Positions 3,055-18,138 of a stretch of DNA of 64,000 bases are shown piece by piece. This stretch comes from Rhizobium sp. PP-CC-3A-592 (GTDB taxonomy: Bacteria > Pseudomonadota > Alphaproteobacteria > Rhizobiales > Rhizobiaceae). The stretch lies in NCBI RefSeq assembly GCF_003217095.1, contig NZ_QJSR01000002.1, positions 248,001 to 312,000 of the forward strand, given 5' to 3'. How positions within the stretch are numbered: position 1 is the first letter of the stretch; every line of letters starts with the position of its first letter. The notes beneath the pieces are model-generated. The model was not told the origin of the DNA, did no database searches, and saw only the letters and a program-made list of their open reading frames with translations. Made by a program: the position numbers and the translations under genes.

Positions 3055-3127
3055 GCAAATATGTCAAAAAATTGTCAGTCCTTCCGATGACTTAACGGTG
3101 TGTTCGGCGCTGCAGCATCGAATGCGA

Positions 3128-3156
3128 TTGACAAGTCCACCCTGAAAATGAGTAAT
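3128..3156 (+). promoter_or_regulatory. Sigma-70-type promoter of the smo operon
   Basis: A perfect -35 hexamer TTGACA at 3128-3133 is followed by a 17-base spacer and AGTAAT (four of six matches to TATAAT) at 3151-3156. It lies 48 bases before the smoE start, and its -10 box sits inside the left arm of the operator described next. Confidence 0.65.
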
Positions 3157-3183
3157 TGCCCGTGAGCGAGGCAAATGCTCATT
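3147..3183 (+). promoter_or_regulatory. Inverted-repeat operator overlapping the smo promoter
   Basis: AATGAGTAATTGCC (3147-3160) and GGCAAATGCTCATT (3170-3183) are inverted copies matching at 12 of 14 positions around a 9-base spacer. The left arm covers the -10 box of the TTGACA promoter. Long inverted repeats of this sort are typical of SorC-family binding sites, and the regulator gene lies immediately upstream, so repression of smoE onward by the SorC protein is the natural reading. Binding itself is inferred. Confidence 0.65.
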
Positions 3184-3203
3184 ACTCTTCTGGGAGGAAG
3201 ATC

Positions 3204-4526
<1,323 letters not shown>

Positions 4527-10667: not shown

Positions 10668-12245
10668 ATGGGCGATCTGATCGTCGCAGTGGATATCGGC
10701 ACGGGCAGCGCGCGGGCCGGGATCTTCGATGCCGCCGGTAGCCTTCTGGCGCGGGCGGATTATCCGATCCTCATGAACCGGCCGGAAGAAAACCACGCCG
10801 AGCATGATTCCGAGAATATCTGGTCGGCCGTCTGCATTGCGGTGAAGACGGCGCGTGCCAAGGCGGGCGTTCCAGCCGAGGCCATCTCCGCCATCGGCTT
10901 CGATGCGACATGCTCGCTCGTCGTGCGCGATCATGACGGCGCGCCGTTGTCGGTCAACCGCAAGGGCGATCCGCGCTGGGACACGATCGTCTGGCTCGAC
11001 CACCGTGCGCTGGCGCAGGCGGATGCCTGCACCGCGACGGAACATCCGGTGCTCGAACACTCCGGCAGCGTCATGTCGCCGGAAATGCAGATGCCGAAGC
11101 TGCTCTGGCTGAAGCAGACCCTGCCGGAGCAGTGGGAGCGGATCGGCTATCTCTTCGACCTCGCGGATTTCATGTCGTGGCGGGCGACGGGCAGCGCCAT
11201 GCGGTCGCGCTGTACGCTGACGGCGAAGTGGAATTATCTAAGCCACGCCGGCGGCTGGCAGCCGGACTTTCTCGATGCGATCGGCCTCGACGATCTTCTG
11301 GAGCGCGGCAGCCTTCAGGCCGAGGCTTCGCCGGTCGGGTCTCCGATCGGCGTGCTCACGGCGGAGGCGGCGGCCGATCTCGGGCTTCACGAGGCCTGCC
11401 GGGTCGCGACCGGTCTCATCGATGCCTATGCCGGTGCGATCGGCGTGCTCGGCCAGTTCGCGAACCGGCCCGATGTGCTGGAGCGGCAACTGGCGCTTAT
11501 CGCGGGTACGTCGAGCTGTGTTGTCGCGTTCTCGCACGAGATGCGCCCCGGCTTCGGCATGTGGGGTCCCTATTACGAGGCCGGTTTCCCCGGGCAATGG
11601 CTGATCGAAGGCGGGCAGTCGGCGACCGGAGCTCTGCTCGATCATGTGGTGCGCAGCCACAGTGCCGGCGGCGAGCCGGACGCGGAAATCCATGCGCGGA
11701 TCGTGCTGCGCATTCAGGAGTTGCGTGCGGCCTACGGCACGGATTTCGCCGCGCGGCTGCACGTGCTGCCGGATTTTCACGGCAACCGCTCGCCGCTTGC
11801 CGACCCGCATGCGCGCGGCGTCATCTCCGGTCTCACCCTCGACAGTTCTTTCCACGCCCTCTGCCGGCTCTACTGGCGGACCTGCGTCGCCATCGCGCTC
11901 GGCGTGCGCCATATCCTCGCGATGATGAAGGATGCCGGCTATCACGTGGATACGCTGCATGTGACAGGCGGCCATGTGCGCAACCCCCTGCTCATGGACC
12001 TCTACAGCGATGCGACGGGTTGCCGTGTGGTGGTGCCGGAAACCACGGATGCGGTGCTTCTGGGAACGGCAATGGTCGCCTCCGTTGCCGGCGGCGTTCA
12101 CGCCGATCTGGCGGCCGCCGGCGCGGCGATGAGCCCGGGCGGTTTCGCGCGCCAGCCCGACCCCGCGATGAAGGCTGTCTACGACCGCGACTACGAAAAA
12201 TTTCTCAGCCTGTACCGTCACCGGGCGGAGCTCGAGGCGGACTGA
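10668..12245 (+). CDS. FGGY-family carbohydrate (pentulose) kinase
   Basis: ATP-dependent kinase of a ketose or polyol, probably phosphorylating the product of the dehydrogenases. The ASKHA fold is shown by IVAVDIGTGSARAGIFD at residues 4-20, the C-terminal half GGQSATGALLDH near 312 and VTGGHVRNPLLMDLY near 434, and HGNRSPLADPHARG, typical of ribulokinase-like FGGY proteins. Length is 525 residues. It closes the polyol operon after a 115-base gap in which I see no gene. Fructose, ribulose or xylulose are possible substrates. Confidence 0.85.
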   Translation: MGDLIVAVDIGTGSARAGIFDAAGSLLARADYPILMNRPEENHAEHDSENIWSAVCIAVKTARAKAGVPAEAISAIGFDATCSLVVRDHDGAPLSVNRKGDPRWDTIVWLDHRALAQADACTATEHPVLEHSGSVMSPEMQMPKLLWLKQTLPEQWERIGYLFDLADFMSWRATGSAMRSRCTLTAKWNYLSHAGGWQPDFLDAIGLDDLLERGSLQAEASPVGSPIGVLTAEAAADLGLHEACRVATGLIDAYAGAIGVLGQFANRPDVLERQLALIAGTSSCVVAFSHEMRPGFGMWGPYYEAGFPGQWLIEGGQSATGALLDHVVRSHSAGGEPDAEIHARIVLRIQELRAAYGTDFAARLHVLPDFHGNRSPLADPHARGVISGLTLDSSFHALCRLYWRTCVAIALGVRHILAMMKDAGYHVDTLHVTGGHVRNPLLMDLYSDATGCRVVVPETTDAVLLGTAMVASVAGGVHADLAAAGAAMSPGGFARQPDPAMKAVYDRDYEKFLSLYRHRAELEAD

Positions 12246-12307: not shown

Positions 12308-12332
12308 GGAACCAATGTCTGGCCGGCGTGTT
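12308..12332 (+). promoter_or_regulatory. Candidate EcfG-dependent promoter of the small RNA
   Basis: GGAAC at 12308-12312, a 16-base spacer, and TGTT at 12329-12332 match eight of nine bases of the EcfG consensus GGAAC-N16-CGTT (equivalently GGAAC-N18-TT for RpoE2). The predicted start would be near 12340, about ten bases before the first RNA hairpin. Confidence 0.55.
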
Positions 12333-12339
12333 TAGTGGA

Positions 12340-12469
12340 TGTCCGGACCATGGTTCTCATCGCCCCCAATGAGAACCACCCAAGAATATCCGGCTTCCAA
12401 CTCACATGCCCCCTCGGTGAGTTGTCGAATACAGCCAGTGCCTCCCCCCGGCACTGGCTGTTTCTTTTT
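12340..12469 (+). ncRNA. Candidate stress-induced small RNA with three C-rich stem-loops (GsrN-like)
   Basis: No credible gene lies between 12246 and 12549, but the plus strand encodes three consecutive hairpins. Hairpin A: stem 12351-12360 with 12369-12378 (10 bp, perfect), loop CGCCCCCA. Hairpin B: stem 12398-12405 with 12417-12424 (8 bp, perfect), loop containing GCCCCC. Hairpin C: stem 12431-12442 with 12450-12461 (12 bp, perfect), loop TCCCCCC, then a T-rich tail. C-rich loops are the mRNA-binding elements of several bacterial small RNAs, including GsrN, the EcfG (SigT)-dependent RNA of Caulobacter. The upstream EcfG-like promoter and position beside the GSR genes support the same role. 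The exact 5' end is inferred. The alternative is a structured 3' UTR of the polyol operon. Confidence 0.65.
12431..12469 (+). terminator. Rho-independent terminator (third hairpin of the small RNA)
   Basis: A perfect 12-bp stem, ACAGCCAGTGCC with GGCACTGGCTGT, encloses TCCCCCC and is followed by TTCTTTTT. It ends the candidate small RNA and would also stop readthrough from the polyol operon. Confidence 0.85.
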
Positions 12470-12549
12470 CAGCGTCAGAAAAATCATATCATGTCGCCGC
12501 GACGTCAACGAAGCACAATCAGGATATTCAGATCGTCGGAAGGCCACGT

Positions 12550-13602
12550 CTAATCCTCGACGGGGGTGAGGATCTCGTATTCATGCGCGGGGATCGTCAG
12601 GTGATATTCGATCCGGTCGGCAGAGGTGATGTAGAGGGCCTTTCCGGCGACGGCAATGGGCACGACGCGTTCGAGCACAGTCCGGGCGAAGCTCGGCTCG
12701 TCGTGGTCGCGCGTGTGGTCCGCGTCCGGAAGATGTTCGATCCAGGCGAGCTCAAGGGCGGGCTTGTCGTTGAAGACGGTCTCGAAGCAGTCGAGCGTCA
12801 GCGAATTCACGCCGGCCGCGATGGCGCCGTGGGAGGCGGAATTAACGATGAGCTCGTGCAGCGCGAGGCCTATGTGGAGCGCGGCATTGGGCGAAAGATG
12901 CGCATTGATGCCGGTGGCGACGATCGGCATGCGGGGTTCCGACCAATAAGCGGCGAACTGCTTTTCGGCCAGCGCGAACAGGAACGCGCCCCGCCAGCTG
13001 GAGTCGGTCACGAGATCCTGCGAATAGGCGAGCGACTGGATGCGGCCGCGGAACTTGACCATGAAACTCTCAAGCGACAGGGCCTGACGCGCCGTCTGGG
13101 TCGCGATACCCTGGATGATGGCGAGCAGGTTCTTGGAGCGGTGGCTGAGTTCCCGAAGGAGGGTCTTCAGGACACGCTCCCGGTGACGGGTCTCCGAAAT
13201 ATCGGTGATGACCGAGAGAATGCCATTCGTGCCGTGCGTGGTGATCCGTTCCAGATCGATCCGGAACGTCATGAGACCTGCGGGGGAGGGAAGTTCGACC
13301 TCCATACAGTCGGCTTCGGCTGTGTCGAAGACGGCTTTCTTCAGGGCCAGCAGGCGGTTGCCGTCCTCATCGCCGAGAACGCCGATGTCGCCGTTTTCGG
13401 AAAGAAGGCCGCTCATGCGGTCGGGCAGGTTTCCGGAGAGGAGAACGTCGAGAGCTTCGGACTGGAAGATGTAACCTGCGCCGGTTTTCTTCACGACGCG
13501 GTCGAGCAGTCCGATACTCTCTCCAGCTTCGGCGGCTTTGATCGTGCCGGCTGGAGATGTTGAACTGCTTGCGCTGGTCACGCGGGATGCCTCTTCATTC
13601 AC
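12550..13602 (-). CDS. HWE/HisKA_2-type sensor histidine kinase of the general stress response, ATP-binding domain degenerate
   Basis: Likely a cytoplasmic sensor feeding or draining phosphate to PhyR. Residues ~30-140 look like a PAS domain; the dimerisation/phosphorylation motif LLRELSHRSKNLLAIIQ places the phospho-acceptor at His154; an N box LALHELIVNSASHGA follows with Asn254. The later ATP-binding motifs seen in the kinase at 15.6 kb (WTEVGGP and RRGFGSILIERSL) are replaced by WIEHLPD and PSFARTVLERVV, losing the glycines. No membrane segment is evident. The start is a GTG at 13602 with a weak ribosome site. A perfect EcfG promoter stands upstream, so it is probably part of the stress regulon and feeds back on it. 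Confidence 0.85.
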   Translation of the reverse strand: MNEEASRVTSASSSTSPAGTIKAAEAGESIGLLDRVVKKTGAGYIFQSEALDVLLSGNLPDRMSGLLSENGDIGVLGDEDGNRLLALKKAVFDTAEADCMEVELPSPAGLMTFRIDLERITTHGTNGILSVITDISETRHRERVLKTLLRELSHRSKNLLAIIQGIATQTARQALSLESFMVKFRGRIQSLAYSQDLVTDSSWRGAFLFALAEKQFAAYWSEPRMPIVATGINAHLSPNAALHIGLALHELIVNSASHGAIAAGVNSLTLDCFETVFNDKPALELAWIEHLPDADHTRDHDEPSFARTVLERVVPIAVAGKALYITSADRIEYHLTIPAHEYEILTPVED

Positions 13603-13759: not shown

Positions 13760-14554
13760 TCAGGCAGCGGCCTGTGTCGATTCATTGAAGAACAGGGCTT
13801 GGCTGATCAGCGCCTTGACCATGTCGGGATTGAACGGCTTCGTCACGAGGAAGGTCGGTTCCGGACGCTCGCCTGTCAGCAGACGTTCCGGGAAAGCGGT
13901 GATGAAGATAACGGGAATGGCTGCGCTGCGCAGGATCTCGTTCACCGCATCGATGCCCGAGCTGCCATCGGCCAGCTGGATGTCGGCCAGCACCATGCTC
14001 GGCTGCGTCGCGTTGAAGAGAGCGACCGCCTCGTCGCGCGTGCGGGCGATGCCCGTGACGCGGTGGCCGAGGCTTTCGACCATCTGCTCGATATCGATCG
14101 CGATCAGCGGTTCGTCCTCGATGATCATGATGTCTGTCGCGACCTGACGGGAGATTTCCTCGGATGCCCGCTCGATCAGCTGCGCCATGCCGCTTTCCGA
14201 CGTTCCGAGAACCTCAGCGGCTTCGCTGGTGCGGAAGCCTTCGACGGACACCAGCAGGAAAGCCTGCCGGGCGAGCGGAGACACGGATGCCAGATTGATG
14301 GAAGCGCGCTTTTCCCATGCGAAGGGCGAAACGGGTTCCGGAATGAGGACCGAGGAGGACCCGAACAGCTTGGTGTAAAGCTGGAACAGCGCGACGCGGT
14401 CGCTGCTTGCTTCCGGGAAAATCGACATATCCGAGATCAGCGCCTCCAGGACAGCGGCGACATAGGCATCGCCCGAGGTCTGGGACCCCGTCAGGGCGCG
14501 GGAATACCGGCGCAGATAGGGCAGGAACGGAGCGATCCGGGTAGACAATGACAT
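13760..14554 (-). CDS. phyR: PhyR, general stress response regulator (sigma-like domain plus receiver)
   Basis: Anti-anti-sigma factor: when phosphorylated, its EcfG-like N-terminal domain binds NepR and frees the sigma factor. Residues 1-~135 are the sigma-like output domain, with the region-4-like SPLARQAFLLVSVEGFRTSEAAEVL; residues ~141-260 are a receiver with acidic pocket IIEDEP, phospho-acceptor Asp191 (MVLADIQLADG), FITAFP and the conserved lysine in VTKPF. Length 264 is typical. It is divergent from nepR-ecfG, the classic arrangement, and has its own perfect EcfG promoter, giving positive feedback. In S. meliloti the equivalent is called RsiB1. Confidence 0.96.
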   Translation of the reverse strand: MSLSTRIAPFLPYLRRYSRALTGSQTSGDAYVAAVLEALISDMSIFPEASSDRVALFQLYTKLFGSSSVLIPEPVSPFAWEKRASINLASVSPLARQAFLLVSVEGFRTSEAAEVLGTSESGMAQLIERASEEISRQVATDIMIIEDEPLIAIDIEQMVESLGHRVTGIARTRDEAVALFNATQPSMVLADIQLADGSSGIDAVNEILRSAAIPVIFITAFPERLLTGERPEPTFLVTKPFNPDMVKALISQALFFNESTQAAA

Positions 14555-14603
14555 TCAAAAACTCCCTCAATCCGGCCGAAATCTTGGCCATGACAGTTAT
14601 GGG

Positions 14604-14628
14604 AACGTTGATCCAAAAAAAAGGTTCC
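14604..14628 (-). promoter_or_regulatory. EcfG promoter of phyR
   Basis: Minus-strand GGAAC (14628-14624), 16-base spacer dominated by a run of T, CGTT (14607-14604): an exact consensus match, 50 bases before the phyR ATG. Confidence 0.88.
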
Positions 14629-14634
14629 GTTACG

Positions 14635-14659
14635 GGAACAAATTTTTCCGTCATGCATT
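14635..14659 (+). promoter_or_regulatory. EcfG promoter of nepR-ecfG
   Basis: GGAAC at 14635-14639, 16 bases, CATT at 14656-14659 (eight of nine consensus bases; fits GGAAC-N18-TT). It is 36 bases before the nepR start and implies autoregulation of the sigma factor. Confidence 0.75.
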
Positions 14660-14694
14660 TAGGGTCCGATCACCACGCGAGGTATTTCGTATTC

Positions 14695-14889
14695 ATGACC
14701 GATAAAACTGGGGCAAGTTCCGGAGCCGGCGAGCCGGTCCGGTCCGACAATCCACATGCGCAGATCGCGACGAAGTTACGCGCGCTATATGTTTCCGTGC
14801 AGGAAGAAGCCATTCCCGATCGTTTTCTGGATCTCCTCGAGCAGCTCGACGCTGTCGAGCGTCGTCACGTTCCGGACGGTGCGAAATGA
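14695..14889 (+). CDS. nepR: NepR family anti-sigma factor
   Basis: Small helical anti-sigma factor that holds EcfG inactive until PhyR-P takes it over. The 64-residue product starts MTDKTGASSG and contains the family core IATKLRALYVSVQEEAIP followed by DRFLDLLEQLD, which form the two sigma-binding helices. I use the ATG at 14695, downstream of the EcfG promoter; a longer in-frame start at 14548 would overlap phyR and run through the promoter. Its stop overlaps the ecfG start (ATGA), so anti-sigma and sigma are translationally coupled. S. meliloti calls it RsiA1. Confidence 0.93.
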   Translation: MTDKTGASSGAGEPVRSDNPHAQIATKLRALYVSVQEEAIPDRFLDLLEQLDAVERRHVPDGAK

Positions 14890-15452
14890 GTACCAAGATG
14901 TCGGCTGAAGAACCCAGTTTCAAGCGCGAAATGCTGGCCGCTCTGCCGAGCCTGCGCGCGTTCGCCATGTCCCTGATCGGCCGCCACGATCGCGCCGACG
15001 ATCTGGTGCAGGACACAATCATGAAGGCCTGGGCAAAGCAGGATCACTTCGAGATGGGCACCAACATGAAGGCGTGGCTGTTCACGATCCTGCGCAACGA
15101 GCTTTACAGCCAGATGCGCAAGCGCGGCCGCGAGGTGCAGGACAGCGACGGTTTCTTCACGGAATCGCTCGCCCAGCATCCGTCGCAATACGGGTCGCTG
15201 GACCTGCAGGATTTTAAGCGCGCCCTGAATATGCTGCCGCCGGACCAGCGTGAAGCCATCATTCTCGTCGGCGCCTCGGGCTTTTCTTACGAGGAAGCCG
15301 CGGAGATCTGCGGTTGCGCTCTCGGGACCATCAAGAGCCGCGTGAACCGTGCCCGCCAGCGCCTGTCGGATATTCTGCAGGTGACGGGCGAAAACGAATA
15401 TGGGCCGGATGCGACATCCGCGCCGCTGACGTCCCGCGCCTTCGTGTCCTGA
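14886..15452 (+). CDS. ecfG: ECF sigma factor EcfG (RpoE2-type), master sigma factor of the general stress response
   Basis: Directs RNA polymerase to GGAAC-N16-CGTT promoters in stationary phase, heat, salt and desiccation. Region 2 is seen at residues ~20-75 (DRADDLVQDTIMKAWAKQ, with the FEMGTNMKAWLFTILRNE segment) and region 4 at ~115-170 (LPPDQREAIILVGASGFSYE, CALGTIKSRVNRARQRL). Length 188 is typical of ECF15. It overlaps nepR by four bases and is followed by a strong terminator. RpoE2 is the S. meliloti name. Confidence 0.96.
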   Translation: MSTKMSAEEPSFKREMLAALPSLRAFAMSLIGRHDRADDLVQDTIMKAWAKQDHFEMGTNMKAWLFTILRNELYSQMRKRGREVQDSDGFFTESLAQHPSQYGSLDLQDFKRALNMLPPDQREAIILVGASGFSYEEAAEICGCALGTIKSRVNRARQRLSDILQVTGENEYGPDATSAPLTSRAFVS

Positions 15453-17688: not shown

Positions 17689-18048
17689 TTAGCGGCGCGA
17701 CAACGCGATGATGGCGATGCCGAGCGCTGCAATGGCGCCGACGGTGGCAAGGGGATGTTCGCGCACCGTGTGGCGAACCTGACGCTCCGTGGAGGCGTAA
17801 CGGTGACGAAGATCGGAGAGAAGCTGCTCTGCGCCTTCCATAACGTCAGAAAGACTGCTTTCAGCCTGACCGCGCACGTCGCTGGCCCGCGAGGACAAAG
17901 TATGGCTTGCCTTGCTGCCGCGCTTGGAAACGAGATTGGCGAGCGATGCAATGTCGCTGCGCAGATCGCTCAGCTGATCTTCGATAGCGCCACCCAAGAG
18001 GTGCTGACGCTTGCGGCTGGACGAGCTGGAAAACAGACCGAGAGACAT
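17689..18048 (-). CDS. DUF883 / ElaB-YqjD-like stress membrane protein
   Basis: 119-residue C-tail-anchored protein. After a Ser/Arg/Lys-rich start comes a long amphipathic helix (~20-95, e.g. IEDQLSDLRSDIASLANLV) with likely coiled coil, then RHTVREHPLATVGAIAALGIAIIALSRR, a single C-terminal membrane segment. E. coli ElaB/YqjD proteins have the same layout, are stationary-phase induced and bind ribosomes at the membrane. The perfect EcfG promoter 66 bases upstream makes it a regulon member. Function in rhizobia is unknown. Confidence 0.8.
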   Translation of the reverse strand: MSLGLFSSSSSRKRQHLLGGAIEDQLSDLRSDIASLANLVSKRGSKASHTLSSRASDVRGQAESSLSDVMEGAEQLLSDLRHRYASTERQVRHTVREHPLATVGAIAALGIAIIALSRR

Positions 18049-18113: not shown

Positions 18114-18138
18114 AACGCGGAGAACGGCGTTTTGTTCC
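18114..18138 (-). promoter_or_regulatory. EcfG promoter of the DUF883/holin-like pair
   Basis: Minus-strand GGAAC (18138-18134), 16 bases, CGTT (18117-18114), an exact consensus match. Confidence 0.85.

Follow-up and report, generated by a model that had tools for sequence, protein, structure and literature searches.

Much is known about the general stress sigma factor of alphaproteobacteria, and the question is which RNAs make up its post-transcriptional arm outside Caulobacter. In Rhizobium sp. PP-CC-3A-592, this question is raised by a gap of 304 bases between a pentulose kinase gene (10668-12245, + strand) and an HWE histidine kinase gene (12550-13602, - strand), within a stretch of 64,000 nucleotides that was analyzed as a whole and is called the window here. 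An initial annotation proposed that the gap encodes a small RNA with three C-rich loops, transcribed under the stress sigma factor EcfG. That idea is essentially right and largely in print already, both as a proposal of GsrN-like RNAs and as data on the ReC64 RNA of Rhizobium etli. The reading favored here, with a probability of roughly 0.8, is that the gap holds a stand-alone gene for a trans-acting small RNA that is the ortholog of ReC64, represents the GsrN-like stress RNAs in Rhizobiaceae, and would act through its loops on G-rich sites. New here are the covarying multi-loop architecture, the span of the family to Sinorhizobium and Shinella, four diverged equivalents, and a likely explanation of the two bands of ReC64. 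No description of a three-loop family was found in the open-access main texts that were searched.

The general stress response locus

The upstream neighbor of the RNA is the last gene of a polyol cluster and encodes a pentulose kinase of the FGGY family (Pfam FGGY_N and FGGY_C; NCBIfam TIGR01315 above its cut-off). The downstream histidine kinase gene (Pfam HWE_HK) is convergent with the RNA gene. Beyond it lie the anti-anti-sigma response regulator PhyR (13760-14554, - strand; Pfam PhyR_sigma2 and PhyR_sigma-like; NCBIfam NF006623 above its cut-off), the anti-sigma factor NepR (14656-14883, + strand; Pfam NepR; a frame given as scanned, without an assigned start), and a sigma factor (14886-15452, + strand; Pfam Sigma70_r2 and r4; NCBIfam NF009169 above its cut-off), which is identified as EcfG because it adjoins phyR and nepR.

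Two further places near these genes carry EcfG-type promoter matches. Between phyR and nepR-ecfG, at 14602-14628, two such matches overlap in divergent orientation (GGAAC...GTTCC, nearly palindromic), an arrangement that would fit autoregulation in both directions. Another match (18114-18138, - strand) lies directly upstream of a small open reading frame (17689-18048, - strand) with a DUF883_C match below the cut-off, a possible additional member of the stress regulon.

Architecture of the RNA

The initial annotation described three hairpins in a row with C-rich loops, the last of them a terminator, and all three are present on the + strand where it placed them. Hairpin 1 (12351-12378, 10 bp) pairs TGGTTCTCAT (12351-12360) with ATGAGAACCA (12369-12378) around the loop CGCCCCCA. 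Hairpin 2 (12398-12424, 8 bp) pairs CAACTCAC (12398-12405) with GTGAGTTG (12417-12424); its loop, ATGCCCCCTCG, contains CCCCCUC and resembles an anti-Shine-Dalgarno sequence, since this motif is complementary to GAGGGGG. Folded alone, hairpin 2 is the least stable of the three (z -1.98). Hairpin 3 (12431-12469, 12 bp; 12431-12442 with 12450-12461; loop TCCCCCC) is an intrinsic terminator, trailed by the T-rich tail TTTCTTTTT in the terminator scan. What the annotation missed is an outer stem, P1a (12343-12393, + strand), in which CCGGA (12343-12347) pairs with TCCGG (12389-12393) and encloses hairpin 1; it shows double-sided changes in all four modeled pairs among 51 distinct homologs. The EcfG (ECF15)-type promoter, assigned from sequence and conservation, is the GGAAC-N16-TGTT that the annotation had pointed to; it occupies 12308-12332 (+ strand) and ends 18 nt before hairpin 1. 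The RNA would start near 12338-12340 and end near 12466-12469.

The three-C-loop architecture is not a product of chance. The predicted folding energy of the 127 nt at 12340-12466 is -53.6 kcal/mol (z -7.13), and among 1000 dinucleotide shuffles none reached equal stability and none had three hairpin loops with CCCCC (820 had no such loop, 175 had one, and 5 had two). When both strands of the window were scanned for hairpins with a stem of at least 6 bp and a run of at least four Cs in the loop, 34 were found, and nowhere else do three of them share a strand inside a span of about 110 nt; two other pairs are equally close together. Three open reading frames over the RNA region (12332-12547, - strand; 12335-12553 and 12339-12569, + strand) were regarded as mechanical; gaps one or two columns wide are frequent in the alignments of the homologs. 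A search of the 64-kb window at Rfam gathering scores returned tRNA only.

Homologs and their distribution

A BLASTN search of 297 Rhizobiaceae genomes at E 0.01 gave matches in 36 genomes. Retained were 24 loci (L001, L009-L031), including two 3'-end matches that sit at the locus (L030 and L031). Left out were 12 genomes in which matches of only 19-42 bases fell at the 3' end with E above 0.001; six of them are represented by loci (L032-L037) that lack any stress-locus gene, and the other six have no locus. One left-out match (G273, near C1:2526671) proved to be the RNA in a later search with a covariance model, R1, which was built from the alignment of the 24 loci (A1). R1 matches the window RNA at 12335-12470 (+ strand) with 147.2 bits, a score for one of its own training sequences.

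With strict filters, R1 scores at least 48 bits in 38 of the 297 sampled Rhizobiaceae genomes and 13 of 109 genera (range 48.8-149.1, the next score being 35.5). The annotation had suggested a covariance search in this family. At E 0.01, matches extend to 68 of 297 genomes, many of the weaker ones spanning 90-106 nt. Under the same strict filters, a sample of 397 genomes at the level of the order has scores above 48 bits in seven, all Rhizobiaceae (best other score 35.4), and among 385 genomes at the level of the class a score of 48 bits is reached in the window's own genome alone. Two weak matches were rejected: a candidate paralog in the window's genome (L199, 26.4 bits), which lies inside long open frames and whose fold has no C-rich loop, and a class-level match (L198, 27.1 bits), whose fold has none either.

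An exact-pattern search of a collection of named genomes returned 36 records, including S. meliloti, S. medicae, S. fredii, S. americanum, and Ensifer adhaerens as well as Xaviernesmea oryzae, Rhizobium giardinii, R. herbae, and Ferranicluibacter rubi. All 36 adjoin the polyol cluster, the stress locus, or both: 34 have a phyR, ecfG, or HWE-kinase gene within the 8-kb locus, and the other two (L045 and L053) end right beside the RNA and have the polyol genes. The RNA is also present in S. meliloti Ak57 (L161), with an R1 match of 129.6 bits between an FGGY kinase gene and rsiB1, where there is no annotated feature, and in a Shinella (L162), with a match of 67.2 bits.

Four genomes (G011, G054, G075, and G263) carry two PhyR genes, of which the copy adjoining the small RNA is 54-56% identical to that of the window and the other 66-70%. 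For EcfG, identity is still 82-83% at the comparable loci of G219 and of Shinella (L162).

Covariation and promoter conservation

Covariation was measured in two alignments. A2 comprises 52 loci given to R1, all of which matched, in 51 distinct rows, with repeats from the same genome omitted as far as seen; because it was fitted to the model, it leans towards R1. In A2, 91.0% of cells hold standard pairs, changes on both sides occur in 20 of 31 pairs (8.5 when shuffled, 6-11 in slid controls), and double changes occupy 76 cells (24.8 when shuffled, 10-36 in slid controls); none of the five covariation measures was reached by any of 500 shuffles. Hairpin 3 is paired in 99.8% of cells, and seven of its 11 pairs are invariant. 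The unfitted A1 (23 distinct rows) has 10 double-change pairs, compared with 5.3 when shuffled and up to 10 when slid (at the +1 slide), and 21 double-change cells, compared with 9.7 when shuffled and a higher 29 at the +1 slide. Its pair-type measure did not exceed shuffles, 459 of 500 of which reached the observed value, and RNAalifold predicted no more than 19 pairs in A1, missing hairpin 2. In folds of single sequences, the layout is present in most of the 24 loci.

The loops are not equally constant. A run of at least four Cs occurs in loop 2 of all 52 homologs, in loop 1 of 47, and in loop 3 of 21, so that constancy is highest for loop 2 and lowest for loop 3. At least CCC is found in all three loops of 46 of the 52. 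Of five Rhizobium RNAs, four have no more than CCC in loop 1, their run of five Cs being placed in the internal loop.

In a single genome the promoter motif is weak evidence, because a slightly looser pattern has six matches in the window against 2.13 expected. Its conservation among the homologs makes the evidence strong. GGAAC lies upstream in 51 of 51 homologs with upstream sequence (the 52nd, L064, is cut), and in 48 of these it is followed by N16-[CT][AG]TT; the remaining three have AATT, AGTT, or, in L094, CGTT after N17. Together, the covariation, these 51 promoters, and the shuffle test bear out the annotation's placement of an RNA gene with an EcfG-type promoter beside phyR and ecfG. 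The gene is almost certainly real, and its transcription by EcfG is very probable.

The promoter starts on the strand of the kinase gene, 63 nt past its stop codon, a terminator closes the stretch, and the pentulose kinase gene lies upstream in 23 of the 24 loci first aligned, so the locus could be taken as nothing more than an untranslated 3' region of the polyol cluster with its terminator, functionless on its own. An EcfG-type promoter of its own in every homolog with upstream sequence argues against this, as do the covarying upstream hairpins, which a mere terminator would not need. Furthermore, four Rhizobium stretches (L151 and L156-L158) and one from genus g106 keep the RNA with phyR and have no polyol match above 33% identity; in the four Rhizobium stretches the stress locus is kept beside the RNA, and no polyol gene was seen in the sequence fetched. 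The R. etli counterpart also has its own start site (PMC3892343). A functionless untranslated region is extremely improbable in light of these points, and an independent RNA gene is preferred.

ReC64 of Rhizobium etli

In R. etli, ReC64 sits downstream of phyR-tcrY and is the sole down-regulated noncoding RNA with an EcfG1 motif, which in this species is GGAAC-N16-CGTT (PMC3892343). The same article places its start, determined by RACE, at the EcfG1 motif, and reports that expression of a fusion is abolished in ecfG1 mutants and switched on in E. coli by EcfG1 and EcfG2 (PMC3892343). ReC64 is raised by salt shock (PMC4167512). Its length is given as 88 nt, and a Northern blot shows an extra, larger band of unexplained origin (PMC2881028).

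The locus resembles that of ReC64 in its position downstream of the kinase gene adjoining phyR (compared for position, not strand, in the window and in loci of genus g30) and in an EcfG consensus promoter at the start, GGAAC-N16-TGTT in the window. Stress expression enters the comparison as a feature of ReC64, having been measured in R. etli. The multi-hairpin architecture and the wide family set the present RNA apart, being absent from the passages of the published descriptions that deal with ReC64. Genus g30 is treated as Rhizobium on the grounds that 12 kb of a G250 contig match Rhizobium plasmids at up to 93.5% and the R. etli CFN 42 record NC_007766.1, which we take to be p42f, at 89.9%. 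Five genomes of this genus have an R1 match of 65-81 bits at the position of ReC64. Since locus, promoter, and Rhizobium relatives agree, the window RNA is in all likelihood orthologous to ReC64, a conclusion drawn from these sources and not from the CFN42 sequence of ReC64 itself.

This relationship suggests a reading of the two bands. In L095, a Rhizobium locus, a start assumed 6 nt after the -10 box puts the end of hairpin 2 at nt 85 and that of the terminator stem at nt 118. Because of these positions, and because GsrN is cleaved to a stable 5' form, the 88-nt ReC64 may be a 5' form with two hairpins, and the larger band may be the uncleaved RNA, as judged from relatives and not from CFN42. 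The reported lengths are compatible with cleavage of the GsrN type.

GsrN and other C-loop RNAs

GsrN of Caulobacter crescentus pairs through a loop with katG and is cleaved to a stable 5' form, while the full-length RNA is stabilized by Hfq (PMC5869019). Homologs of GsrN have been predicted in R. etli and S. meliloti, and GsrN-like RNAs have been proposed at the phyR/ecfG locus (PMC5869019). For S. meliloti, the GsrN article cites Valverde 2008, in whose main text (PMC2573895) the name ‘SMc0150’ was not found. The GsrN article (PMC5869019) recognizes GsrN-like RNAs by several features, evidence of intergenic transcription among them; an EcfG site close to the consensus and a place near phyR/ecfG, two more of these features, are found here. 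The two RNAs are also alike in being driven by SigT/EcfG (predicted in the present case), in a length of about 100 nt, in a C-rich loop, and in an intrinsic terminator, and some of the listed partners of GsrN carry GGGGGCG, which is complementary also to loop 1 of the window RNA. They differ in that one 5' C-rich loop is stressed in the account of GsrN, compared with three loops here. They differ also in the target: no katG homolog was found in the window's genome, where a search for PF00141 gave no match (a positive control was found in Caulobacter vibrioides), and katG was therefore rejected as a target of the GsrN type.

The annotation's suggestion of a rhizobial equivalent of GsrN had accordingly been made in print before (PMC5869019), and as a statement about position and promoter it stands; common descent does not follow from it, as no R1 match of at least 48 bits lies outside Rhizobiaceae in the 397 order-level and 385 class-level genomes. 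Such an absence is weak evidence, because a diverged locus in the same position (L144) scores only 27.9 bits.

Two other RNAs share the architecture. The Xanthomonas RNA sX13 has three stable hairpins with loops of four or five Cs, and its Hfq-independent repression requires G-rich motifs (PMC3771888). The likeness is one of architecture, with no homology claimed; sX13 belongs to an unrelated locus (polA) and organism. In Sinorhizobium, NfeR1 consists of three CCUCCUCCC hairpins whose unpaired, C-rich anti-Shine-Dalgarno motifs are redundant (PMC10746234).

The resemblance to NfeR1 raises the possibility that the RNA is a diverged copy of its family, ar14 (RF02344 in Rfam). The ar14 model does align to the locus over its full length (1-123 of 123) with 26.8 bits (E 0.0025 in a search of 304 bases), and the three CCUCCUCCC hairpins of NfeR1 recall the layout seen here. 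This score, however, is far under the gathering score of 58.8, and six homolog loci together (42.5 kb) have no Rfam match at E 1 or below. The window's genome carries five ar14 copies of the NfeR1 type elsewhere (G000, contigs C1, C2, and C3; 86-103 bits), and the locus is absent among the seven matches listed. The promoter described for NfeR1 is also of another type (PMC10746234). Membership in ar14 is thus highly unlikely, and a separate family to which ReC64 belongs is preferred.

Possible targets and proposed mode of action

In the mechanism proposed here, PhyR would free EcfG from NepR, and the freed EcfG would transcribe the RNA from 12308-12332, a step measured for ReC64 in R. etli and predicted in the window. 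The RNA would then fold into hairpin 1 with its outer stem, hairpin 2, and the terminator hairpin, each exposing an unpaired run of Cs; this fold is predicted, and covariation supports it. The loops, loop 2 in particular (AU[G/C]CCCCUC), may pair with G-rich sites of the Shine-Dalgarno type and so alter the translation of several mRNAs, probably mostly by repression, to judge from sX13, NfeR1, and GsrN. Cleavage downstream of hairpin 2 but ahead of the terminator may leave a 5' form with two loops, about 88 nt long, beside the full length of about 125 nt. By analogy with these RNAs, base-pairing with G-rich mRNA sites is likely.

The annotation's proposal that the loops pair with G-rich ribosome sites found no support in comparisons with reversed loops. 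Duplexes between loops and start sites averaged -8.86 with the true and -8.90 with the reversed loops over 58 crudely called genes of the window, and the complement of a 10-mer from loop 1 occurs seven times in the window's genome (one of them being the opposite strand of the RNA gene itself) and six times for the reversed control, which is no excess. These tests are weak, with short seeds, crude starts, and one genome or one gene. Sites expected to pair with the loops would be GAGGGG(G)CAU- or GGGGGCGA-like.

Among possible targets the annotation had named the GGGAGGGG site at 2101, as an illustration and expressly not as evidence. The gene at 2101 encodes a regulator and heads the polyol cluster (its closest NCBIfam models are DeoR and LsrR, neither of which reaches its cut-off), and its ribosome site GGGAGGGGCAT is complementary to loop 2 at -20.6 kcal/mol, the best of the 58 genes. 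As a target it was rejected: followed through 23 genomes, the G-rich site differs even within the genus, in the four other members, and the RNAs' own loops do no better than reversed loops (-10.2 and -10.4 for this one gene).

The pairing results, none of them above controls, would also fit an RNA that acts on a protein, or as a sponge that titrates another RNA by means of its C-rich loops or pairs with read-through transcripts of the kinase gene, and not on the ribosome sites of mRNAs. That gene converges on the RNA, and the terminator scan listed no minus-strand terminator between the two (12425-12549); kinase read-through would therefore yield a perfect antisense of the small RNA. The C-loop RNAs sX13, NfeR1, and GsrN, on the other hand, act on mRNAs (PMC3771888, PMC10746234, PMC5869019), the weak target tests leave room for mRNA targets, and the diverged positional equivalents described below keep C-rich loops and not sequence. 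A protein-binding or sponge function is therefore considered unlikely, and action of the loops on G-rich mRNA sites is favored.

Diverged equivalents and a possible deeper family

In addition, 20 phyR loci from other genomes were inspected by regular expression and by eye, which is not a systematic survey; R1 was run on 17 of them (all except L134-L136). Four loci without a strong R1 match carry C-rich hairpins followed by a terminator in the same place and on the same strand: L137 and L138 (genus g48), L143 (g63), and L144 (g84), the last with GGAAC-N16-GATT upstream. The folds of L137, L143, and L144 have a large, C-rich first loop and UCCCC in the loop of the second hairpin. In L138 the second hairpin is missing from the minimum fold, though the sequence can form it. 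A further locus, L149 (g106), is an R1 match of 56.8 bits. Inspected in the same way, the other 15 of the 20 showed no such C-rich hairpins with a terminator.

Six of the 20 loci (L131-L134, L136, and L140; genera g74 and g68) have a hairpin of 10-11 bp with the loop CACCCCTCAAA or CACCCCTCAAT at about 3107-3293, counted phyR-forward. The hairpin lies between phyR and the kinase gene, after a short reading frame that is itself preceded by an EcfG-type promoter match, and is possibly a C-loop RNA derived from a 3' end.

The diverged equivalents invite a more tentative extension, against which the odds lean. A deep family of stress RNAs might keep the layout only (an EcfG promoter, a C-loop hairpin 1, a hairpin 2 with AU[G/C]CCCCUC, and a terminator) while the stems, and loop 1 too, are exchanged. 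The ancestral anti-Shine-Dalgarno seed would then be loop 2, and the three-loop and cleaved two-loop forms could have different target sets.

With the R1 model, the set of homologs (S. meliloti among them), and the loop predictions, the question of which RNAs serve the post-transcriptional arm of the general stress response becomes directly testable in standard symbionts. If such a deep family exists, the rhizobial general stress response would be a translational as well as a transcriptional switch.
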